Source: Roseimaritima ulvae (lineage in GTDB: Bacteria > Planctomycetota > Planctomycetia > Pirellulales > Pirellulaceae). Taken from it: a DNA stretch of 64,000 nucleotides. Under the pieces are notes generated by a model. The model did no database searches. It was given only the letters and a program-made list of their open reading frames with translations, and was not told where the DNA came from. The position numbers and the translations under genes were made by a program. Every line of letters starts with the position of its first letter. The stretch's first letter is position 1. Location: contig NZ_CP042914.1 of the NCBI RefSeq assembly GCF_008065135.1, positions 7,917,404 through 7,981,403 of the forward strand, in the 5' to 3' direction. This document shows, piece after piece, positions 866 through 58,501 of this stretch.

Positions 866-1016
866 CGTAGCCGAAGTCGCCAAGACTTTGGAAACGCGGG
901 GCAAGCCTCCAAACTCTGGCGAGTTCGGCTACGGCAGAACGCAGCGTCCAAACTCTGGCGAGTTCGGCTACGGCGGAACGCAGCGTCCAAACTCTGGCGA
1001 GTTCGGCTACGGCGGA
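866..1016. repeat. Dispersed repeat family A cluster (one inverted, three direct copies)
   Basis: The family A unit is CGTAGCCGAAGTCGCCAGAC followed by TTTGGA, or its complement with an AACTC/AGTTC variant. Here one copy runs forward at 866-892 and three run in reverse at about 908-933, 947-972 and 986-1011. The opposed copies can fold into a hairpin. The same unit recurs in at least eight other intergenic spaces of this window. Confidence 0.85.
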
Positions 1017-9369: not shown

Positions 9370-9418
9370 ACGAGGTCAGGCGTCTCCTGCGGCAACGAGT
9401 TAAACTAGGGCGAAATCT

Positions 9419-9481
9419 CAAATCTCAAATCTCAAATCTCAAATCTCAAATCTCAAATCTCAAATCTCAAATCTCAAATCT
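9419..9481. repeat. Heptamer microsatellite (CAAATCT), nine copies
   Basis: Nine exact head-to-tail copies of CAAATCT with partial copies on both sides (9413-9494). The array ends immediately before the ATG of the PQQ-type gene at 9498, so it forms the whole proximal leader. Similar arrays lie at 12537-12592 and 14632-14764, with a remnant at 43900-43918. Confidence 0.95.
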
Positions 9482-9497
9482 CAAATCCAAATCTGCC

Positions 9498-11148: not shown

Positions 11149-12661
<1,513 letters not shown>

Positions 12662-14563: not shown

Positions 14564-14820
14564 CGAGTAGCGAGTAGCGAGTAGCGAGTAGCGCGGTCGG
14601 AGGACGGGAGGGACAAGAAGCTTCGCTGACTCAAATCTCAAATCTCAAATCTCAAATCTCAAATCTCAAATCTCAAATCTCAAGTCTCAAGTCTCAAGTC
14701 TCAAGTCTCAAGTCTCAAGTCTCAAGTCTCAAGTCTCAAGTCTCAAGTCTCAAGTCTCAAGTCTCGCGCCTCACTGCCTCACTGCCCTACTGCCTCCAAA
14801 GTCTGGCGACTTCGGCTACG
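14564..14820. repeat. Mosaic intergenic element, second copy
   Basis: GCGAGTA heptamers at 14564-14593 are followed by the GGTCGGAGGACGG...CTTCGCTG spacer. Then come exactly seven CAAATCT copies (14632-14680) and twelve CAAGTCT copies (14681-14764). The element ends with an ACTGCC-rich stretch and a family A unit at 14795-14820. The switch from CAAATCT to CAAGTCT is abrupt, which points to expansion of a single point variant. The order matches 12451-12661. Confidence 0.93.
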
Positions 14821-42804: not shown

Positions 42805-42907
42805 CGTGGCCGAACTCGCCAGAGTTTGGATCTTTCAGCGCGTCGTCCAAAGTCTGGCGACTTCGGCTACGGGCGGATTGGTCCAAAGTCTGGCGACTTC
42901 GGCTACG
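42805..42907. repeat. Family A cluster
   Basis: One forward unit at 42805-42830 and two reverse units at 42846-42871 and 42882-42907 lie between the GNAT gene and the diguanylate cyclase gene. The reverse units are separated by GGCGGATTGG, which recurs after the second as GAGCGGATTGG. Confidence 0.85.
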
Positions 42908-42927
42908 AGCGGATTGGTTGCGAAGGA

Positions 42928-47427: not shown

Positions 47428-47499
47428 TTGTGCCCCATGCTACTAGACAACTTGTGTATCCTGGATACCGCCTCACTCCCCTCCCTTGCGGTACCCACA

Positions 47500-50400
47500 A
47501 TGCCCAGCATTTTCCGTTTATTGCTCCTCAGCGGGCTGCTCTCCTCCAGCCTCACAGCCGCTGACACCCACACCCTGCACTCCTTCGATCGCCAGCAGCT
47601 GACCGACCAGTACTACAGCGAAGGCGCGGCGGTGGGCGACCTGAACAACGATGGGCACATGGATGTGGTCTACGGGCCGCTGTGGTTTGCGGGTCCCGAT
47701 TTTCAACAACGCCACGAGATCGCCCCGGTGGTTCCGCAAAACCGCGATGGCTATGCCGATCGCTTCTTCCACTGGGTCTACGATTTCGATCGTGACGGCC
47801 ACCGCGACATCCTGACCGTGGGCTTCCCCGGCACTCCAGCCTTCGTCTACAAAAATCCCGGCAACCACTCCCAGACCACTGCCGATGGCTCGCCGAACCA
47901 CTGGCCACGGCACGAGGTGTTCGACTGGGTTTCCAATGAGTCGCCGCAGTTTGTGGATCTGGTCGGCGATGAGCGTCCCGAATTGGTTTGCACCCGCGAC
48001 GGCTTTTTTGGCTACGCCACGTTTGATCCCGACCGACCGCTGGACTCCTGGGACTTCCACCGCATCTCGCCGCAAGTCGCCGCGCGACGCTTCGGTCACG
48101 GCTTGGGCGTGGGCGACATCAACGGCGACGGTCGCCAGGACGTGATCACTCAAAACGGCTGGTATGAACAACCCACCAAACTTTCGGACACCGCGGGCTG
48201 GCAGTTTCACGAGTACCCGTTCTCTCGCCCCGGTGGCGCCGACATGTTCGCCTACGACGTCGACGGCGATGGCGATAACGACGTGATCACGAGCATCAAC
48301 GCCCACTCCTACGGGCTGGCTTGGTTCGAACAGATCGAAACCGACGGCCACATCGATTTCCGGCCCCACACCATCATGGGAGAAACGAGCAAAGATAATC
48401 CTTACGGCGTGCTGTTCACCGAACCCCATGCCGTCCAGTTGGTCGATATCGATGGCGACGGTTTAAAAGATATCTGCACCGGAAAAACCTATTGGTCTCA
48501 TCATCGCCAAAGTCCGTTGTGGGATGCCGGCGCGGTGGTGTATTGGTTCCAGTTAAAACGTGGCGAAGACGGCGTGGACTGGGTTCCTCATCAAGCCGAT
48601 GGTCAAGCCGGCATCGGTCGCGGACTGGTTGTGGCCGACGTCAACGGCGACGATTGGCCCGACATCGTGTCCGGCGGCATGAAGGGCTGTCACGTGTTGC
48701 AACAACAGCGTCAAACGGTCGATGAAGCCACCTGGAAATCCAGCCAACCGAAAAAACGCGTGCCCATGGCTGATGGTTTGCCGCCCGAAAAAGCAGCCGC
48801 CAAAATGACTGTGCCCGAAGGATTCCATGTCCAACTGGCCGCCGGCGAACCCCACGTGCATCAACCCGTGGCCATGACCATCGATCCCCGCGGACGGGTG
48901 TGGATCGCCGAAGCGTACACCTATCCGGTCCGCGCCCCTGATGGCCAGGGCCGCGACAAAATCATCATCCTGGAAGACGCCGATCAAGACGGCCGCTTCG
49001 AAACTCGCAAAGAATTCGCCACCGGGCTGAACCTAATCAGCGGCCTGGAAGTCGGTTTTGGCGGCGTCTGGGTCGGCGCCGCTCCGTACCTAATGTTCAT
49101 CCCCGACCGCGATGGCGACGATGTTCCCGACGCCGAGCCGCAGATCTTGCTGGACGGCTTTGGCTACCACGATACACACGAAGTTCTCAATGCATTTAAC
49201 TGGGGTCCCGACGGTTGGCTGTACGGTTGCCACGGCGTGTTTACGCATTCTCGCGTCGGTGCCCCAGGTACGCCCGATGACCAGCGGACGCCGTTGAATG
49301 CGGGCGTCTGGCGTTACCACCCCACCGAACATCGCTTCGAAGTCTTTGCCCACGGGACCAGCAATCCTTGGGGCGTCGATTTCGATGATCACGGTCACGC
49401 CTTTATCACCGCCTGCGTGATCCCGCACCTGTTCCACATCATTCCCGGTGCCCGCTATCACCGCCAAGCCGGTCAACATTTCAACCCGCACACCTACGAC
49501 GACATCAAAACCATCGCCGACCACGCCCACTTCAGCGGCAACATTCGCGACCACGCCTGGTGGGGCCATGAACCGGCCGATGTTCCCGATGCCACCAGCG
49601 CCGCCGGCGGTGGACACGCGCACTGTGGAGCGATGATTTATCTGGGGGATAACTGGCCCGAAGAATATCGCAACTCGATCTACTTCAACAACGTTCACGG
49701 CAATCGCGTCAACAACGATATTCTTAAACGGCAAGGCAGCGGTTTCGTCGGCCACCATGGCAAAGACCTACTGATGGCCAATGACCATTGGTATCGCGGC
49801 ATCAACCTTCGCTGCGGCCCCGACGGCGCGGTATACCTGATCGATTGGTACGACAAAAACGCATGCCATCGCTCCACGCCCGAACTCTGGGATCGCTCCA
49901 ACGGTCGCCTGTATCGCGTCCGCTATGGCGACCAACAACCGGTCCGAGTCGATCTCGAGCAACTGGACGATGCGCAACTGGTCGAACTGCAGTTACACCC
50001 CAACGACTGGTACGTGCGGACCGCGCGGCGACTGCTGCAGCACCGCGCGGTCGATCGCGATGTGTCGGCGGCACGGCAGGCTCTGACCGAGATGCTGCAA
50101 CACGCCTCCGCCACCCGGCGACTGCGAGCCCTCTGGTGTCTGCACGTGACCGGCGGCGTCGATCCGGCGGCGTTGGTCGAGCTGATGGACGACACCGACG
50201 AACACGTGCGTTACTGGGCCGTGCAACTTTCAGCTGCATCCACCCCCTCGCCGCTTGTCCAAAAAACTTGGCTGCGGTTGGCCGAACAGGACGACTCGGC
50301 CCTGGTCCGGCTGTCGGTCGCCTCGGCCCTGCAGCGTATCCCCCTGGACGATCGCTGGACGACCTTGACCGCGCTTTTGCAGCATCGCGAGGACGCTCTC

Positions 50401-52134
50401 GACCACAACCTGCCACTGATGATTTGGTACGCCGCCGAACCCTTGGTCACGCACGATCCAGCGCGAGCCATGCAGTTGGCGAAGCAAGCTCGGATCCCGC
50501 TGGTCGTCCAATACCTCACCCGTCGCGCCGCCAGTGACACCACGGCCATCAACGCTGTGGTGCAATCGTTGTTGGACGCCTCGGCCGATACTCAGCCGAT
50601 CATCCTGCATGAAATCCTGCAAGCCTTTGAAGGACAGGTCCAGGTGCCGATGCCCGATGCCTGGCAAGCCGCTTACGAAAAACTGCTTGCCAGCGGCGAT
50701 CCCGACGTGATTGAAAAAGCCGACAAGATCGCCTTGGTGATGGGTGACCGCCGCATCCTGCCACGGATGCGACGCGTGCTGTCCGACGCCCAGGCCGACA
50801 TCGCAGACCGCAAGCGGGCGATGGAAGCCCTGCTGCGCGGCCAGGACAGCGAAGCCGCCCCGGCGTTGTTGACCGCGCTCGACGCCCCACCACTTCGTTC
50901 CCAAGCGATCCGTGCACTGGCGGCCTACGAACACTCGGAAATTGCCCCGCGATTGATCGCACTGTATGCCTCGCTGTCGGCCGAACAGCAGCAGGACGCC
51001 ATCAACACGCTGGCCGCTCGCCCGACTTCAGCACTGCAACTGCTGGCCGCCATCGATACCAAACAAATCCCCGCGAGCGACGTGCATGCTTACACGATCC
51101 GTCAATTGCGCAGCTTTGAAAACGCGGAACTAAACGAACGCATCGCTGCCAGCTGGGGAACGGTGCGTGGATCGTCGAGCGATAAACGCCAGCGGATTGA
51201 AAACCTAAAAGCCGAACTGAGTAAAACGCAACTGGCCGCCGCGGACCTCTCTCACGGGCGCCAGCTGTTCGAAAAAACCTGTGCTTCCTGTCACGTGCTG
51301 TTTGGTAACGGCGGCAAGATCGGTCCCGATATCACGGGCTCCAACCGAGCCGACCTGAACTACTTGCTAGACACCATCGTCGACCCCAACGCCCTGGTCG
51401 GCAAGGACTACCAGATGTCGGTGATCCTGACCGTCGACGGCCGAGTCATCAACGGCTTGATTCAAAAAGAAACGGCTTCAGCACTAACCGTGCGGACCGT
51501 CAACGATACCGTGGTGATCGCCAAGGAAGACGTGGAATCGCGCGAACTGTCGCCTTCGTCATTAATGCCCGAAGCCCTGTTGGACACGCTTTCGGTCGAA
51601 CAACGCCGTGACCTGATCGCGTATCTGCAAAGCCCCACGCAGGTGCAGATTCGCGGCCCCGAAGCACCGATCGATGCCAACACCGGGCGGGTCGCCGGAG
51701 CGATCGAGGGTGAATCGCTAAAACCGATCGGCACCCCGCCCGGTCAAGCACGACCTCAGCCGATGGGCAACTTCCACGGTGGAAAGTGGAGCGGCAACAA
51801 TCAATTGTGGTGGACCGGCGGCAACCCCGGCGACCAATTGGATCTGCCTCTGCAAGTCAAAGCCGATGGTCGCTACCAACTAGAAATCGTGCTGACGCAA
51901 GCTCGCGACTACGGGGTCTTCCAAGTGTTACTGGACGATCAACCTCTGGGCGGACCGATCGATCTGTTTCATGCCGATGACGTGATCACCACCGGCGTGC
52001 TGACGCTGGACGCCGGGCCACTGATGCAAGGCGAGCACCGTCTGTCGTTCCGAGTCGTGGGTGCCAACGCCAAGGCCGTCAAGTCGTACATGCTGGGGCT
52101 GGATTTCGTGCGGCTGCAAGCGTCTACTCCGTAG
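47500..52134 (+). CDS. PVC-type cytochrome/dehydrogenase fusion with FG-GAP repeats
   Basis: A 1,544-residue exported protein. A signal peptide (SIFRLLLLSGLLSSSLTA) is followed by FG-GAP/VCBS-like repeats to about 420, with calcium-binding-type loops such as DLNNDGHMDVV, DVDGDGDNDVI and DIDGDGLKDI. A sorbosone/glucose-dehydrogenase-like propeller covers about 440-850 (GFHVQLAAGEPHVHQPVAMT). HEAT-like helices follow to about 1240. A cytochrome c motif has Cys1261, Cys1264 and His1265 (CASCH), followed by VDPNALVGKDYQ typical of PVC haem-binding domains. A beta-sandwich, carbohydrate-binding-like domain ends the protein. It probably oxidises sugars outside the cytoplasm. The ATG at 47500 precedes the signal peptide. 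Confidence 0.92.
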   Translation: MPSIFRLLLLSGLLSSSLTAADTHTLHSFDRQQLTDQYYSEGAAVGDLNNDGHMDVVYGPLWFAGPDFQQRHEIAPVVPQNRDGYADRFFHWVYDFDRDGHRDILTVGFPGTPAFVYKNPGNHSQTTADGSPNHWPRHEVFDWVSNESPQFVDLVGDERPELVCTRDGFFGYATFDPDRPLDSWDFHRISPQVAARRFGHGLGVGDINGDGRQDVITQNGWYEQPTKLSDTAGWQFHEYPFSRPGGADMFAYDVDGDGDNDVITSINAHSYGLAWFEQIETDGHIDFRPHTIMGETSKDNPYGVLFTEPHAVQLVDIDGDGLKDICTGKTYWSHHRQSPLWDAGAVVYWFQLKRGEDGVDWVPHQADGQAGIGRGLVVADVNGDDWPDIVSGGMKGCHVLQQQRQTVDEATWKSSQPKKRVPMADGLPPEKAAAKMTVPEGFHVQLAAGEPHVHQPVAMTIDPRGRVWIAEAYTYPVRAPDGQGRDKIIILEDADQDGRFETRKEFATGLNLISGLEVGFGGVWVGAAPYLMFIPDRDGDDVPDAEPQILLDGFGYHDTHEVLNAFNWGPDGWLYGCHGVFTHSRVGAPGTPDDQRTPLNAGVWRYHPTEHRFEVFAHGTSNPWGVDFDDHGHAFITACVIPHLFHIIPGARYHRQAGQHFNPHTYDDIKTIADHAHFSGNIRDHAWWGHEPADVPDATSAAGGGHAHCGAMIYLGDNWPEEYRNSIYFNNVHGNRVNNDILKRQGSGFVGHHGKDLLMANDHWYRGINLRCGPDGAVYLIDWYDKNACHRSTPELWDRSNGRLYRVRYGDQQPVRVDLEQLDDAQLVELQLHPNDWYVRTARRLLQHRAVDRDVSAARQALTEMLQHASATRRLRALWCLHVTGGVDPAALVELMDDTDEHVRYWAVQLSAASTPSPLVQKTWLRLAEQDDSALVRLSVASALQRIPLDDRWTTLTALLQHREDALDHNLPLMIWYAAEPLVTHDPARAMQLAKQARIPLVVQYLTRRAASDTTAINAVVQSLLDASADTQPIILHEILQAFEGQVQVPMPDAWQAAYEKLLASGDPDVIEKADKIALVMGDRRILPRMRRVLSDAQADIADRKRAMEALLRGQDSEAAPALLTALDAPPLRSQAIRALAAYEHSEIAPRLIALYASLSAEQQQDAINTLAARPTSALQLLAAIDTKQIPASDVHAYTIRQLRSFENAELNERIAASWGTVRGSSSDKRQRIENLKAELSKTQLAAADLSHGRQLFEKTCASCHVLFGNGGKIGPDITGSNRADLNYLLDTIVDPNALVGKDYQMSVILTVDGRVINGLIQKETASALTVRTVNDTVVIAKEDVESRELSPSSLMPEALLDTLSVEQRRDLIAYLQSPTQVQIRGPEAPIDANTGRVAGAIEGESLKPIGTPPGQARPQPMGNFHGGKWSGNNQLWWTGGNPGDQLDLPLQVKADGRYQLEIVLTQARDYGVFQVLLDDQPLGGPIDLFHADDVITTGVLTLDAGPLMQGEHRLSFRVVGANAKAVKSYMLGLDFVRLQASTP

Positions 52135-52344
52135 GCGGAGGCGACGACTGGACTTAATAGCATTGAATTGTCATGCGGCCACACTTCACCCTCCCCCTGG
52201 GAGTCCCCGGTTCCATGGGCTCGCGCCCATGGCTACATCAAGCCGCCGCTTCGCGGCTGATGCGGTTGTGCCGTCAGCGACCGATGCGTGCTAGGATCAC
52301 CATTTATAGATCGCCCTCTCTGGGAGGGTGCAATGCTACTAAGT
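52135..52344. repeat. Non-coding flank of the 201-bp array with family G arms
   Basis: CACCCTCCCCCTGGGAG near 52187 faces CTGGGAGGGTGCAATGCTAC ending near 52340. Inside is a perfect small hairpin (CCATGGGC TCGC GCCCATGG at about 52213-52232) and a GCCGCTTCGCGGC palindrome. No gene is seen. Confidence 0.6.
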
Positions 52345-53735
52345 CAGGCGTCGGCGTGGGCTGCCGCGGATGTTGGCGATTGCGCTGGATACAAATCACC
52401 TTTTCGCTTCGACTACAACGCTTCGGCGGACAACGCCTGCGCCTACGGAGCCTGTCACATGCGATGCTGCGGGCAATACGCATAGAGGCTCCTGCGGCTA
52501 CGGGTTAAACGATAGATGACGGCTAGTTCGTTTAACCCGTAGCCGCAGGCGTCGGCGTGGGCTGCCGCGGATGTTGGCGATTGCGCTGGATACAAATCAC
52601 CTTTTCGCTTCGACTACAACGCTTCGGCGGACAACGCCTGCGCCTACGGAGCCTGTCACATGCGATGCTGCGGGCAATACGCATAGAGGCTCCTGCGGCT
52701 ACGGGTTAAACGATAGATGACGGCTAGCTCGTTTAACCCGTAGCCGCAGGCGTCGGCGTGGGCTGCCGCGGATGTTGGCCAATACGCTTGATACGCATCA
52801 CCCTTTCGCGTCGACTACAACGCTTCGGCGGACAACGCCTGCGCCTGCGGAGCCTGTCACGTGCGATGATGCGGGCAATACGCATAGAGGCTCCTGCGGC
52901 TACGGGTTAAACGATCGATGACGGCTAGCTCGTTTAACCCGTAGCCGCAGGCGTCGGCGTGGGCTGCCGCGGATGTTGGCCAATACGCTTGATACGCATC
53001 ACCCTTTCGCGTCGACTACAACGCTTCGGCGGACAACGCCCGCGCCTACGGAGCCTGTCACGTGCGATGCTGCGGGCAATATGCATAGAGGCTCCTGCGG
53101 CTACGGGTTAAACGATAGATGACGGCTAGCTCGTTTAACCCGTAGCCGCAGGCGTCGGCGTGGGCTGCCGCGGATGTTGGCGATTGCGTTCGATACACAT
53201 CACCCTTTCGCTTCGACTACAACGCTTCGGCGGACAACGCCTGCGCCTACGGAGCCTGTCACGTGCAATGATGCGGGCAATACGCATAGAGGCTCCTGCG
53301 GCTACGGGTTAAACGATAGATGACGGCTAGCTCGTTTAACCCGTAGCCGCAGGCGTCGGCGTGGGCTGCCGCGGATGTTGGCGATTGCGCTCGATACGCA
53401 TCACCCTTTCGCTTCGACTACAACGCTTCGGCGGACAACGCCTGCGCCTACGGAGCCTGTCACGTGCAATGATGCGGGCAATACGCATAGAGGCTCCTGC
53501 GGCTACGGGTTAAACGATAGATGACGGCTAGCTCGTTTAACCCGTAGCCGCAGGCGTCGGCGTGGGCTGCCGCGGATGTTGGCGATTGCGTTCGATACAC
53601 ATCACCCTTTCGCTTCGACTACAACGCTTCGGCGGACAACGCCTGCGCCTACGGAGCCTGTCACGTGCAATGATGCGGGCAATACGCATAGAGGCTCCTG
53701 CGGCTACGGGTTAAACGATAGATGACGGCTAGCTC
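52345..53735. repeat. Tandem array of seven 201-bp units with internal hairpins
   Basis: Units start at 52345, 52546, 52747, 52948, 53149, 53350 and 53551, an exact 201-bp period. The seventh stops after about 185 bp at the stop codon of the RND gene. Each complete junction has 22-bp perfect arms (CCTGCGGCTACGGGTTAAAC then GA, and its complement; first at 52491-52512 and 52528-52549) with a 15-nt loop. Units 1 and 2 match each other most closely, as do 3 and 4, and 5 and 7. Although 201 is a multiple of three, no reading frame stays open across units, so the array is non-coding. It lies between convergent genes. Confidence 0.97.
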
Positions 53736-56700
53736 ACGTCGTGCCGAACAAGCGGTTGCGGGTGTCCATTAGGATGCGGAACAGGGCGGGCACAAAGAAC
53801 AGCGTAAAAATCGTTGATACCAACAGGCCGCCTAACAATACACTGCCCAGCCCGCGATACAGTTCGCTGCCCGCGCCAGGAAACAACACCAACGGACACA
53901 GCCCCAGCACGGTCGTGGCGGTGGTCATCGCGATTGGACGCACTCGCGTGCGGACACTTTCTTGAATCGCGGCCTGCACGTCCAACTGCTGCTCACGCAT
54001 CAGGTTCAATGACTGGTGTACGATCAAAATGGCATTGTTGACCACCGTGCCAATCAGGATCACAAACCCCAACATGGTCAGCACATCCAACGGTTGCGGC
54101 GGCATGCCTTGAGCTTGCAAGTACACGCCCAGAGCTCGCAATCCCAACACGCCACCCACCGCGCCCAGGGGCACACTGAGGATGATCACCAGCGGATAGA
54201 TCCAGCTTTCAAACAACGCCGCCATCAACAGGTAGGTGATCAACAAGGCCAGCAACACGTTCCATCGCAACGCCTCCCAGGTATCGCGCAGCTTGTCGGC
54301 CGTGCCGCTGAGGTTCACCTGGTAGCCACCGTCGAGCTGTCCCGAAGCGCGGAGCGGCGCGACGATTTCGGTTTCGATCGTCTCCAGAGCGTTCTCCAAG
54401 GGAATGCTGGGTGGCGGAGAGACTTCGATCGTGATCGCCCGTTGCCGTTCGCGATGGTTTACCTGTTCGGGTCCGCTGGACATCGACGGAGTGGCCAACG
54501 TCGAAACCGGCACCAACTGCCCGCCGGGCGTGGCGATCTGCAGCGTATCCACATCCTGAGAATGGCGGATCGAGGCCGGCGAGCCGATGATGGTCAAGTC
54601 GATTTTGTCGCCGCCAACAAAGTAGTCGGTGGCGTAGGCCCCATCGACCAACGCGTCGATGGTATAGCCCAACGACGTGGCGTCGACGCCCATTTGATCG
54701 TTCTGCAACAGCCGCGGCTTGAGATGATACTCCGGGCTGCTCAAGTCCAGACTGGGCACCGGACGAGCCTGAGCTTCAGGCATCAGCTGCATCGTTTTCC
54801 CCAACACCTGACCTCCGATCGACACCAACTGCTTAAGCTCCGGCCCGGTAATTTCAACGTCGATGGTTCGCCCGGCGGTCAAACCTTGCTCAAACAGACT
54901 GGACTGTTTGGCGACCACAAACGTGCCTTCCAACTTCTTACGGACCTCCTGGATCAACGGCACCAGTTCCGCGGCCCGCGTGGCATCCACTGCCCGCACA
55001 CCCAAAAATACCTGTCGACCGCGAGCGACGTAGAAGAAGTCAAAGATCGGCGGATACTTCAGTTGCTCGGCCGCCTCACTACCCGGTTCCACATCCCAAT
55101 AGGGCTGCAAATGGTCTTCGACCAATTCACCGATACCGCTCAGTTCGTCCAGGTTGTACCCGGCCGGCGGCAACAGAATGCCAAACACCAGATTGCGGTT
55201 TCCCGACGGTAGATATTCCACCTTGGGCCAAACCAAATAACTGACTCCCACAGCCACTCCCACCAACCCCACGACCACTCCCAACCGCAACAGCAGGCTG
55301 GATTGAATCAGCCGGTTGATGAGCACGATGCCTCGCACCATCCGCGTGTCGCGCGGTGAAACCTCGCGGACCTCGTCGGTGTTTGCCGAACCACCACGGT
55401 GGGTGCCCGCGAGCAAGCGAGCCGCGGCCGTGGGAATCAAGGTGATGCTGACGATCAGCGACAGGCCCACCGCGGCGCTGATTGCCAGCGCGATATCGCG
55501 GAACAGCTGCCCGGCTTCTTCCTCCACGAACAACACCGGCAGGAACACGGCCAACGTCGTCAGCGTCGAAGCCAGCACCGCACCCCAAACCTCTTGGCCG
55601 CCTTCAACAGCGGCTTGGCGAGCGGATTTGCCGTCCTGATAGTGACGATACACGTTTTCTAACACCACCACGGCATTATCGACCAACATCCCCACGGCAA
55701 AGGCCATGCCCGCCAAGCTGATCACGTTTAAGGATCGCCCCCACAGGTTCAACATCAAAAACGTACCGATGATACTGATCGGAATCGCCACCCCGACGAC
55801 CACGGCTCCCCGCGCGAACCAGAATCCCGACACCAAAATGCAGGCCAACGTGGCGGCGAAAAACCAAGGTGAGATAAAAATCGCCGCCAGAGTGGTTCCG
55901 ACGATGATCGGCACGGTTAATAACGACCGTCGCTGCCAATGCAAAAACAACATCAACACGATCATCGTCAGCGATCCGCCGATGATAATGTTCTGGTTGA
56001 CCAACCCCACCGACGCATAGATGTACTCGGTCTCGTCATAGACCTGCGTCAACTGCAGCTTTTTCTCACGCAGGATCTGGGTGTTTAATTCTTCCGCCCC
56101 CTCGCGCAAACCATCCATCACGTCCAGCACGTTGGCACCCGTTTCCCGCAACGCATTGATGGCGATCGCACTCTCGCCAAACCGCCGCACCATGCCGTCC
56201 GGTTTTTTGAACCCCATACGGACTTCGGCGACGTCGCGGATGTAGATCGGGATCCCGCCGCGAGTGGCCAGAATTTGGGCGCCGACTTCTTCGGGAGACT
56301 CAAACTGGTTGATCGTCCGCACCACATACCGCCGCTTGCCCTCCCAAAAATCGCCTCCCGATGTGTCCCGGTTCTGCTGCCGCAAGACGGCGCGAACATC
56401 GTCGATCGTCAGCTGACGGAATGCTAAGCGATCGGGATCGACCACGACCTGTAATTCTTCCTCCAACCCGCCCAGCACGTTGGCATTGGAGACCCCGCCG
56501 ACGCGTTCCAATCGAGCTTCGATGGTGTCTTCGGCAAACCGTCGCATCCCAGGCACGTTCAAATCCGGCGGCAACAACGGCGCCACCTGCGGATACTGGC
56601 CGGCTAATTTCCGCAACCGCAACAACCGCAAACCGGGGTTGTCGGTATCGGCGATCTTTCGCAGCTGAGCACTCAGGGACGAGGGATCGGCGTTGTCGGC

Positions 56701-57195
56701 CGCAGCCGCCCCAGCCGATTGCTCCTCGGCCAACTGCCGAATCTCCCCCGGCGTGGGCTGTAGGGCGCTGAGGATAAACCAAGCGATGGGCCGGTCCGAT
56801 GCGTTGCTGGTCGAGATCACCGGTTGATCGGCGTCTTCGGGATACTCGCGGACCTGCTGCAACCGACTGTTAACCTTCAACAGCGATTCTTCCATGTCCG
56901 TGCCGACGGCGAACTCCAGGGTGATCGAGGCTCGCGAGTCCATCGATTCGCTGCTCAACTTGGTCAGCCCCTCGACGCTCTTCAGTTGTTCTTCTTGCTC
57001 CTGGGTGATTTCGCGTTCGACTTCCTGCGGGCTGGCACCCGGCCAAATCGTATCGACCGTCAGCGTCGGTGTTTGCACTTCGGGGATTAACTGCATCGGC
57101 ATGCGGAACAACGCAATGCAACCAAACAAGATGACCAGCAGCGCCCCGACGCTGACCTTGACCGGGTTGTTCACGCAAGCTTCGATAAATGTCAC
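53734..57195 (-). CDS. RND-family efflux transporter, inner-membrane subunit
   Basis: A protein of about 1,153 residues of the AcrB/HAE-1 type. The N-terminus FIEACVNNPVKVSVGALLVI and PEVQTPTLTVDTIWPGASPQ is typical. The fourth-helix motif GMAFAVGMLVDNAVVVLENV, with the proton-relay-type Asp, and the C-terminal LLITYLLMAALFESWIYPLV and MLGFVILIGTVVNNAILIVH are in place. An extra segment of about 70 residues (about 145-215) lies in the first periplasmic half. It should export drugs or lipids using the proton gradient, together with the adaptor encoded upstream. GTG 57195 gives a normal start; the open frame to 57303 would overlap the adaptor gene. Its TGA stop abuts the 201-bp array. Confidence 0.93.
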   Translation of the reverse strand: MTFIEACVNNPVKVSVGALLVILFGCIALFRMPMQLIPEVQTPTLTVDTIWPGASPQEVEREITQEQEEQLKSVEGLTKLSSESMDSRASITLEFAVGTDMEESLLKVNSRLQQVREYPEDADQPVISTSNASDRPIAWFILSALQPTPGEIRQLAEEQSAGAAAADNADPSSLSAQLRKIADTDNPGLRLLRLRKLAGQYPQVAPLLPPDLNVPGMRRFAEDTIEARLERVGGVSNANVLGGLEEELQVVVDPDRLAFRQLTIDDVRAVLRQQNRDTSGGDFWEGKRRYVVRTINQFESPEEVGAQILATRGGIPIYIRDVAEVRMGFKKPDGMVRRFGESAIAINALRETGANVLDVMDGLREGAEELNTQILREKKLQLTQVYDETEYIYASVGLVNQNIIIGGSLTMIVLMLFLHWQRRSLLTVPIIVGTTLAAIFISPWFFAATLACILVSGFWFARGAVVVGVAIPISIIGTFLMLNLWGRSLNVISLAGMAFAVGMLVDNAVVVLENVYRHYQDGKSARQAAVEGGQEVWGAVLASTLTTLAVFLPVLFVEEEAGQLFRDIALAISAAVGLSLIVSITLIPTAAARLLAGTHRGGSANTDEVREVSPRDTRMVRGIVLINRLIQSSLLLRLGVVVGLVGVAVGVSYLVWPKVEYLPSGNRNLVFGILLPPAGYNLDELSGIGELVEDHLQPYWDVEPGSEAAEQLKYPPIFDFFYVARGRQVFLGVRAVDATRAAELVPLIQEVRKKLEGTFVVAKQSSLFEQGLTAGRTIDVEITGPELKQLVSIGGQVLGKTMQLMPEAQARPVPSLDLSSPEYHLKPRLLQNDQMGVDATSLGYTIDALVDGAYATDYFVGGDKIDLTIIGSPASIRHSQDVDTLQIATPGGQLVPVSTLATPSMSSGPEQVNHRERQRAITIEVSPPPSIPLENALETIETEIVAPLRASGQLDGGYQVNLSGTADKLRDTWEALRWNVLLALLITYLLMAALFESWIYPLVIILSVPLGAVGGVLGLRALGVYLQAQGMPPQPLDVLTMLGFVILIGTVVNNAILIVHQSLNLMREQQLDVQAAIQESVRTRVRPIAMTTATTVLGLCPLVLFPGAGSELYRGLGSVLLGGLLVSTIFTLFFVPALFRILMDTRNRLFGTT

Positions 57196-57226
57196 AACGG
57201 AAACCGTAGCGGAAGGAGGAAGTACG

Positions 57227-58501
57227 TTAAGGACCGTCGAATAGGGCGGCGGAGTCCAGCGTCGAACGAACAGCGACGGCTTGTCCGGGACGCAAGCGTT
57301 CATTGCCGCGGACGACCACGGCGTCCCCGGCAGCCAAACTGGCGGGGACGGCCGGGAACACTTGGATCAGACCTCCAAACGAAGCGCCTTTGCGGACCTT
57401 GACCGGCGCCGCCTTGCCGCCCACCACCTTGATCAACGTGGCAGCATCCCCGGCCAGATTAAGCGCGTCTTTGGGGACCAACAGCGCCAGTTCCGTTTCT
57501 CCCACAGGCAGGGCCACGCGAGCCATCATGCCGGGCAACAAGCGTGGCTGGCCTTCACGCTGCGGATTGGGAACGCGGATTCTGACGGGAAAAGAACGCG
57601 CCCGCACATCGCCTTCGGGAACGATCGCGGCGATCTGTCCTTCGACCACCCGCCCCGGCAAGGCCTCGATCCGCACCGTACAGCTCTCCCCCATGCTCAC
57701 AAACGGGATACTCGCTTCGGGCACATTCACCACCACTTCCAGTGGATCGATTTCGATCACTTCCGCCACCGCATCGCCCTGACTAACCCAAGCTCCAACC
57801 TCGGTATGTTCGCGGGAAACGAAGCCATCGAAGGGCGCTCGTAGCGTGTATTTCTTGATCCGGTCGTCGATGCCGGCGACCACCTGCTTTTGCATTTCCA
57901 ACCGCGCCTTGGCCTGAGCGATTTTTTCCGGCCGCGGACCATCCCGCACCAGTTTCAGCTGATTGCGAGCCTGCTCCAACGTGGCGGCCGCTCGCAGGGA
58001 TTCGCTTCGCGCGGCTTCGAATTCTTCCTGCGACAACCCGGCACTATCGCGGAACAGTTTCTCGGCGCGTTGGAATCGCGACAGCGTGTACTTCGCAGCT
58101 GCTTCGGCCGCCGCCATTTGGGCTTCGGCCAAAGCGATCTCTTCGTCCAACGAACCGTTCTGCAGCTCGGCCAATTCCGCGGCCCGCAATTCCTTTTCCG
58201 CCTCCGCAGCGGCTAGTTCGATATTGATCGTGGCGGTTCGAATTAAAGCCAGTGTGTCTCCCGCACTGACGGCTTGGCCGGCATCGACGGGATAATCTTC
58301 CACACGGCCATCGACCGCGCTACCGATCACCGCTCGGCGATGCGGAAACACATTGGCCACGTAGGTCGCTTCGGCCATCACCGACCGCTGCAGTACCTCG
58401 GCCGTGCTCACTCCCGCCGCTTCACCCGGCTGAGCCGCGCTGCGCGTGGGCAGCCCCACCAGCAAGAAACAGCCCACTGCCGCTGCCACAATCCTGATCA
58501 T
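57227..58501 (-). CDS. RND efflux periplasmic adaptor (membrane fusion protein)
   Basis: A 424-residue HlyD/AcrA-type adaptor. After a signal peptide (VAAAVGCFLLVGLPTRSAA) comes a lipoyl half-motif (GSAVDGRVEDYPVDAGQAVS). A long alpha-hairpin covers about 95-200 (AEKELRAAELAELQNGSLDE). The second lipoyl half is YTLRAPFDGFVSREHTEVGA, followed by beta-barrel and membrane-proximal domains. It links the inner-membrane pump to an outer channel. No TolC-like gene is nearby. The order adaptor then pump, 31 bp apart on the minus strand, is the usual RND operon layout. Confidence 0.93.
   Translation of the reverse strand: MIRIVAAAVGCFLLVGLPTRSAAQPGEAAGVSTAEVLQRSVMAEATYVANVFPHRRAVIGSAVDGRVEDYPVDAGQAVSAGDTLALIRTATINIELAAAEAEKELRAAELAELQNGSLDEEIALAEAQMAAAEAAAKYTLSRFQRAEKLFRDSAGLSQEEFEAARSESLRAAATLEQARNQLKLVRDGPRPEKIAQAKARLEMQKQVVAGIDDRIKKYTLRAPFDGFVSREHTEVGAWVSQGDAVAEVIEIDPLEVVVNVPEASIPFVSMGESCTVRIEALPGRVVEGQIAAIVPEGDVRARSFPVRIRVPNPQREGQPRLLPGMMARVALPVGETELALLVPKDALNLAGDAATLIKVVGGKAAPVKVRKGASFGGLIQVFPAVPASLAAGDAVVVRGNERLRPGQAVAVRSTLDSAALFDGP

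Follow-up and report, generated by a model that had tools for sequence, protein, structure and literature searches.

A seven-copy hairpin array of Roseimaritima ulvae is one of many tandem clusters of a probably mobile, RAYT-associated palindromic repeat

Between two convergent genes of Roseimaritima ulvae, in a stretch of 64,000 nucleotides referred to here as the window, lies a non-coding tandem array with a strong hairpin at each complete unit boundary, and the question it raises is whether such an array serves the genes beside it or has an origin of its own. The initial annotation had described seven exact units of 201 bp with no open frame through them and a perfect 22-bp stem with a 15-nt loop at each complete junction, and had offered a bidirectional transcription barrier, a source of repeated small RNAs or a protein-binding array as possible roles. 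The described anatomy is borne out: Tandem Repeats Finder, applied to the window, returned a period of 201, 6.9 copies, 97% matches, 0% indels and a score of 2544, the first copy being incomplete (Table 1). The repeating entity is an element of 186 nt with inverted ends, TCGTTTAACCCGTAGCCGCAGG...CCTGCGGCTACGGGTTAAACGA, which occurs both singly and in tandem. Copy 1 starts where a neighbouring repeat (52151-52345) ends and lacks the first 18 nt of the left end, and the seven copies thus make 6 complete junctions. The hairpin noticed at first is the junction between adjacent element copies, in which a 15-nt spacer of flank origin separates the right end of one copy from the left end of the copy that follows, and its perfect 22-bp stem CCTGCGGCTACGGGTTAAACGA / TCGTTTAACCCGTAGCCGCAGG with the 15-nt loop is present in all six. 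The majority spacer in the window is identical to the first 15 nt of the 3' flank (TAGATGACGGCTAGC), and since this is the sequence adjoining the last copy, the flank was duplicated together with the element. Folded as single-stranded DNA, junction 1 reaches -28.2 kcal/mol (z = -10.9 against dinucleotide shuffles), while copy 5 as a single strand forms an outer stem of both ends with two inner arms (-57.1 kcal/mol, z = -7.4), and the consensus of 35 copies has a similar fold outline. The RND gene has its stop codon at 53734-53736, and the final two bases of the array fall within it. Among open reading frames of at least 80 aa, one (52173-52508) extends into copy 1 and none spans the array units.

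Table 1. Coordinates of the array, its element copies, the neighbouring genes and the RAYT gene (window positions unless a locus is named)
Feature	Position	Strand	Basis
Whole array, seven element copies in one orientation	52345..53735	+	TRF, nhmmer
Copy 1, left end truncated, model positions 19-186	52345..52512	+	nhmmer
Copy 2, full 186-nt element, TCGTTTAACCCGTAGCC...GGCTACGGGTTAAACGA	52528..52713	+	nhmmer
Copy 3, full element	52729..52914	+	nhmmer
Copy 4, full element	52930..53115	+	nhmmer
Copy 5, full element	53131..53316	+	nhmmer, folding
Copy 6, full element	53332..53517	+	nhmmer
Copy 7, full element	53533..53718	+	nhmmer
Junction hairpin 1 of six, from the right end of copy 1 through the 15-nt spacer to the left end of copy 2	52491..52549	.	
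Starts of all six junctions	52491, 52692, 52893, 53094, 53295, 53496		
Flank TAGATGACGGCTAGCTC beside copy 7	53719..53735	+	sequence and copy map
Convergent neighbour, FG-GAP / DUF7133 / cytochrome c domain protein	47428..52134	+	
Convergent neighbour, AcrB/RND-family transporter	53734..57303	-	
RAYT open reading frame, 207 aa	L041 2737-3357	-	PF01797, NF047646 matches

Sequence changes among the window copies fall outside the stem, as had been claimed, with 0 of 44 columns variable in the arms as compared with 17 of 157 elsewhere (Fisher p = 0.027), and this invariance is weak evidence of selection. The annotation had left the choice between selection on structure and recent homogenisation, and it is homogenisation that gains support, as the mean identity amounts to 95% for copies inside one array (26 of 31 arrays) and to 77% for representatives of different clusters. 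Compensatory changes in the arms, named at the outset as the sign of a functional stem, did not emerge: in an alignment of 35 of 42 representative copies (six truncated copies and one of two full copies of L036 being left out), both-sided change was found in 1 of 38 consensus pairs with a covariation term of +0.29, and the ends are near-invariant in sequence. A functional RNA was rejected as a candidate on these figures.

Tandem clusters of this kind are numerous in the genome, and the small palindromic repeat that forms them, this array included, is probably mobile. A BLAST search with one unit against the 8.2-Mb genome gave 261 matches, partial ones counted, and the end motif CGTTTAACCCGTAGCCG, with one mismatch allowed, occurs at 452 genome sites as compared with 1 for its reversed control. 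In 34 regions taken from the BLAST matches listed, at least 182 whole or partial copies are found in at least 50 clusters, of which 31 contain two or more copies and 24 three or more, with a maximum of 11 whole or partial copies; these cluster counts are lower bounds, and end-motif sites at, for example, 103-105 kb and 2063-2065 kb lie outside the 34 regions. Both ends are complete in 63 of the 182 copies. Single-unit periods lie between 160 and 220, most of them at 175-178, and composite periods, 274 for example, also occur. No target-site duplication was noticed among the copies in an inspection short of a systematic search. A dispersed repeat with decayed stems was what the annotation had set against a functional array: the dispersal is indeed present, but the stems are intact. 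Among named genomes, an exact 50-base scan gave no match, and a shorter pattern gave 71 stretches in nine assemblies, all with planctomycete titles; Rhodopirellula maiorica and R. sallentina both contain the longer motif and a RAYT homolog.

Directly next to the array, at 52151-52345, lies a second small repeat, whose inverted ends read GACTTAATAGCATTG / CAATGCTACTAAGTC. Its end motif, which several clusters of the main repeat have at their 5' edge, occurs, with one mismatch allowed, at 81 genome sites as compared with 0 for the reversed control, and some inverted pairs span about 181 bp. The sole Rfam match in the window, Acido-Lenti-1 (47.5 bits, 52213-52258), lies inside this second repeat, and at gathering score no Rfam family matches within the array.

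Hairpins of this strength at a convergent site, the arrangement of the two neighbours being as annotated, invite the reading that the array ends transcription from both sides or gives rise to structured small RNA. The folding of the junction agrees with such a role, and so does the small number of divergent sites: by a codon-usage gene call, 46 of 50 clusters were classified as 22 convergent, 22 same-strand and 2 divergent, with four left unclassified as a scored gene is absent on one side, and these counts are not independent, several clusters sharing one intergenic region. The clusters sit between called genes, in a gene call that skips genes overlapping a cluster by >60 bp and is hence blind to copies inside genes. 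However, terminator-like sites with a T-run number 0 as compared with 1.6 expected by chance, nearly half of the classified clusters (22 of 46) have same-strand gene neighbours, and the covariation expected of a structured RNA is not seen. The comparison with a related genome, which the annotation had recommended, also goes against this role, as in the congeneric genome G001 the same two genes, with proteins 71% and 89% identical, also converge and zero units lie between them. There, at most about 530 bp separates the aligned ends, and the intergenic stretch (L190) contains repeats of other kinds, whereas neither an array nor GTTTAAC in either orientation is present. Since this congener keeps the gene pair without the array, the array is not needed by the gene pair, and no role for the flanking genes is indicated. 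A terminator or small-RNA source is therefore held to be improbable, while a secondary effect of the array on transcripts may still occur. Other short tandem repeats, with CCAAAGTCTGGCGACTTCGGCTACG-like units, are present at window positions 904-1016 and 42845-42918, with similar sequence in the array-free site of the congener, and are perhaps another REP-like family. The window also has near-perfect heptamer tandem repeats, CTCAAGT, CTCAAAT and AAATCTC (14630-14765, 12535-12594 and 9413-9494, respectively), with up to 19 copies.

The repeat was most likely spread by a single-copy transposase gene. RAYTs are REP-associated tyrosine transposases, single-strand nucleases of the HuH/tyrosine type. 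The genome has 13 matches to Y1 transposases, and one of these, at 6.434 Mb, lies between element arrays. Its product matches PF01797 Y1_Tnp above the cut-off and NF047646 REP_Tyr_transpos at 1e-13, under the cut-off of that model. Upstream of this gene are element positions 1-49, positions 94-172 begin 9 bp past its stop codon, and more element copies follow further out on both sides. The gene is present as a single copy, with one strong self-match and otherwise a weak match (E = 0.0025), and in 10 regions around the 12 other Y1_Tnp matches neither the element nor the GTTTAAC motif was found. Comparison of its sequence with solved structures gave weak matches only, the best at E 0.0027 and with chains named transposase, and a structure model from three sequences was too poor for use (pLDDT 43). 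The proposal of a protein-binding array survives in a broad sense only, the element being a probable RAYT substrate.

Inverted ends with such a tag could also suggest that the units are attC-like integron sites. The attC core consensus is RYYYAAC / GTTRRRY, and GTTTAAC and GTTAAAC, found at both element ends, match it; moreover, two integron integrases score above the TIGR02249 cut-off (424 and 372 bits). These integrases are located at G000:C1 2880760-2881710 and 3002368-3003309, and the repeat is absent at both. Against integron sites, no element was found in 8 integrase-match loci (L055-L062, about 1.5 kb each side), and the units, which lack cassettes, hardly differ within an array, occur at scattered places along the chromosome and have a RAYT linked to them. 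An integron cassette array was rejected on the ground that the element is absent from the 8 loci and that the units are non-coding and near identical, and attC-like sites must be regarded as highly improbable.

The linkage of the RAYT to a tagged repeat extends across genera. A RAYT match at E <= 1e-10 was found in 20 of 149 genomes of the family, with exactly one match in 17 of the 20, and in 14 distinct homologs (aligned in 16 rows) HxH and Y..NP are invariant. Close RAYT loci (L093-L106) were collected from this genome and from 13 other genera, one per genus, at 51-67% identity, and in all 14 the pattern GTTTAAC-N3-7-GCC-N3-5-GGC flanks the gene on either side at a distance of at most 400 bp, although the motif was framed on the same loci and the 14 of 14 is no independent test. 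As the motif was framed from the tested loci, controls matter: it is missing from the 10 Y1_Tnp regions of this genome and present in 2 of 7 loci that had been chosen in other genomes for a different purpose, and one of the two, L193, comes from the repeat-rich genome G009. Six distant or broken homologs have the motif on both sides in L111 (a broken gene), on one side in L108 and on neither in four. The bases between the tag and the hairpin vary by lineage (CCGTA, GGCAA, GCCAA, CGCGT, CGCAAT and others). GTTTAAC, usually in the form TCGTTTAAC, is what stays constant, and the commonest mini-hairpin is GCC-GNA-GGC (12 of 15 loci). In this genome GTAG follows the tag, but GTAG as the defining tag was dropped, being present in 4 and absent from 11 of the 15 related loci that carry the GTTTAAC motif. 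The short tag-hairpin taken alone is in its canonical case no stabler than shuffles, with L104 somewhat stabler and L106 not. Some RAYT genes of other genera are situated inside tandem arrays of their own repeats, namely L104 (905-2960), L111 (432-3467) and L095 (1215-1482), with a repeat spacing of about 132 bp, 80 bp (the broken gene) and 34 bp, respectively.

The tag is also associated with the gene at the level of whole genomes. Of 14 genomes carrying a close RAYT, 12 have a ratio of TCGTTTAAC to its reversed control of at least 0.95, a line chosen after the ratios were known, as compared with 4 of 34 without RAYT (rank test p = 4.5e-5), where the close set excludes six distant or broken homologs from the 20 positive genomes and the 34 are a subset of 129 negatives. 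With all 20 RAYT genomes set against the 34, the rank test gives p = 0.0016. Two genomes with a close RAYT, G076 and G130, fall below 0.95, and four others, at 0.96 to 1.44, are hardly enriched. A 16-row profile, which detected two positive controls, found no RAYT of the studied clade in the 34 genomes, and four of these (G009, G017, G019 and G027, one of them a single contig) are nevertheless tag-rich. Repeats can thus exist without that gene, and these four genomes suggest repeats that outlive the gene or the use of another enzyme. In all three congeners examined, both the RAYT of this clade and the tag excess are absent.

The 132 junctions in the fetched regions were sorted by the tags that they keep. 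The left tag alone survives in 64, the right tag alone in 54 and both tags in 14, with 0 keeping neither, and all six junctions of the window keep both. All 21 arrays with shortened right ends have the end at model positions 171-176, within a base of CTAC (GTAG on the other strand), and shortened left ends are looser, starting at 12-35 in 18 of 20 arrays and at 96-98 in 2; the arrays in these counts may not be mutually independent. As in the window, junction spacers are often copied from the flank. Tested on those of the 31 arrays with a complete outer end, 23 for the 3' and 10 for the 5' side, spacers share a mean of 3.9 nt with their own 3' flank versus 1.2 nt with the flanks of other arrays (0 of 10000 permutations as good), and 2.5 versus 0.8 nt for the 5' flank (p = 0.012). 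No spacer base is shared with the flank in 7 of the 23 arrays on the 3' side and in 4 of the 10 on the 5' side.

Such arrays could also have grown with the RAYT uninvolved, by replication slippage and unequal recombination of a dispersed palindrome at end repeats or look-alike flanks. Some flanks do resemble the element end, with GCTAGCCGC past the right end in several arrays and GCTGCGGCTACA ahead of the left end in L030, and this likeness is enough for short-homology joining; the 95% likeness inside arrays is likewise as expected of unequal exchange. On the other side, the retention of at least one tag in 132 of 132 junctions and the confinement of shortened right ends to a 6-nt interval in 21 of 21 arrays are judged tighter than free slippage, yet short homology at the stem foot could also focus joints, and the arrays are perhaps not independent. 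Plain short-homology recombination explains array growth almost as well as RAYT action and leaves the identity of the repeat unaffected; as an account of array growth only, we give it a chance just short of even.

With regard to that identity, the repeat is well supported as a RAYT-associated repeat of the REPIN type, and we consider it very probable that the units of the array are clustered tandem copies of a non-autonomous palindromic element that belongs with the REPINs and BIMEs and is linked to a RAYT whose action we infer. In this scheme the RAYT would recognise the tag and hairpin in single-stranded DNA, would cut at the foot of the palindrome and would rejoin the ends, by which the element moves. 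Rejoining would also seed tandem units that carry a few bases of flank, and ordinary unequal recombination may then alter the copy number and homogenise the copies. At the window locus, the element is situated between another repeat and the RND stop codon and has expanded to seven copies.

Likeness to known systems was judged from parts of the papers cited below. With the REPINs and BIMEs of Pseudomonas fluorescens SBW25 and E. coli, as far as the parts drawn upon describe them, the element shares inverted doublets of a tagged palindrome at high copy, a RAYT with the repeat beside its gene, and tandem clusters that include flanking sequence (PMC3116915, PMC8266576), the last being described for REPINs in PMC3116915. 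However, the unit is about 186 nt here as compared with the 71 and 110 bp used in the consulted part of PMC3116915, the element has two inner arms and a constant GTTTAAC rather than GTAG tag, and 31 arrays of at least two copies, with a maximum of 11 whole or partial copies, are present in the fetched regions. The available part of PMC3733652 defines GTAG and CGTC superfamilies of REPs, one-side-tagged palindromes with a RAYT association for GTAG and with families in Rhodopirellula baltica among them, and describes both a bias to convergent and same-strand sites and clusters with flanking DNA, all of which are features shared here. In contrast to the GTAG superfamily, GTAG is not the constant foot in 11 of 15 loci, and in contrast to the CGTC superfamily, for which that part of PMC3733652 gives no dedicated transposase, the GTTTAAC tag has a linked RAYT. 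The TIRYT/TIRtrons, also in that part of PMC3733652, resemble the present locus in having a gene between long inverted repeats that are also found elsewhere, as dimers or clusters; they differ in that GGGGWSAS, reported there for some TIRs, is missing from the end motif here, and in that families called moderately abundant there compare with 452 end motifs. According to the consulted part of PMC6006769, class 3 TnpA-Y1 enzymes occur mainly in Planctomycetes, with atypical flanking structures of REPtron-like character, a distinct Y motif and a CnGA foot. The present enzyme is likewise a planctomycete Y1 protein, but it has YV..NP with N and P invariant, closer to class 2, in place of the YV[VI][AENY]EQ given there, and a foot motif different from CnGA. 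MITEs and miniatures of the IS200/IS605 kind are similar in being non-coding with inverted ends, and the RAYT unit corresponds on its two sides to element positions 1-49 and 94-172, but the linked RAYT gene is here a single copy. In the parts covered of the literature on RAYTs and REPs in Planctomycetes, no description of the repeat was found; PMC3733652 states in its consulted part that Rhodopirellula baltica is rich in tyrosine transposases with flanking repeats, and the R. baltica families drawn in its figures lie outside this comparison.

Relative to known REPINs, the new features are the different constant tag, the long unit and a tag kept in 132 of 132 junctions. From these a wider proposal can be drawn, which we put forward tentatively and at somewhat less than an even chance: planctomycetes of the Pirellulaceae type may possess a separate GTTTAAC REP superfamily (usually TCGTTTAAC, ahead of a mini-hairpin that in most cases is GCC-GNA-GGC) and their own YV..NP clade of RAYTs, and in this genome the RAYT may build arrays by site-specific joining at the foot, always with one tag per junction, so that the arrays would record RAYT-made circles or rolling joints.

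As a caution for annotation, hairpins that are strong, conserved and placed between convergent genes can belong to mobile repeats, and regulation of the neighbours does not follow from them. The growth of REP clusters becomes directly testable through the large number of arrays, of which the fetched part by itself offers 132 readable junctions. Recognition by RAYTs, which are puzzling domesticated transposases, has so far been tied to GTAG; in the part of PMC8266576 drawn upon, the E. coli TnpA-REP cuts at CT and has GTAG as a requirement, changes in which are tolerated in part by two other RAYTs. The constant GTTTAAC with a variable GTAG in these planctomycetes thus provides a natural test of which bases are read by the enzyme.
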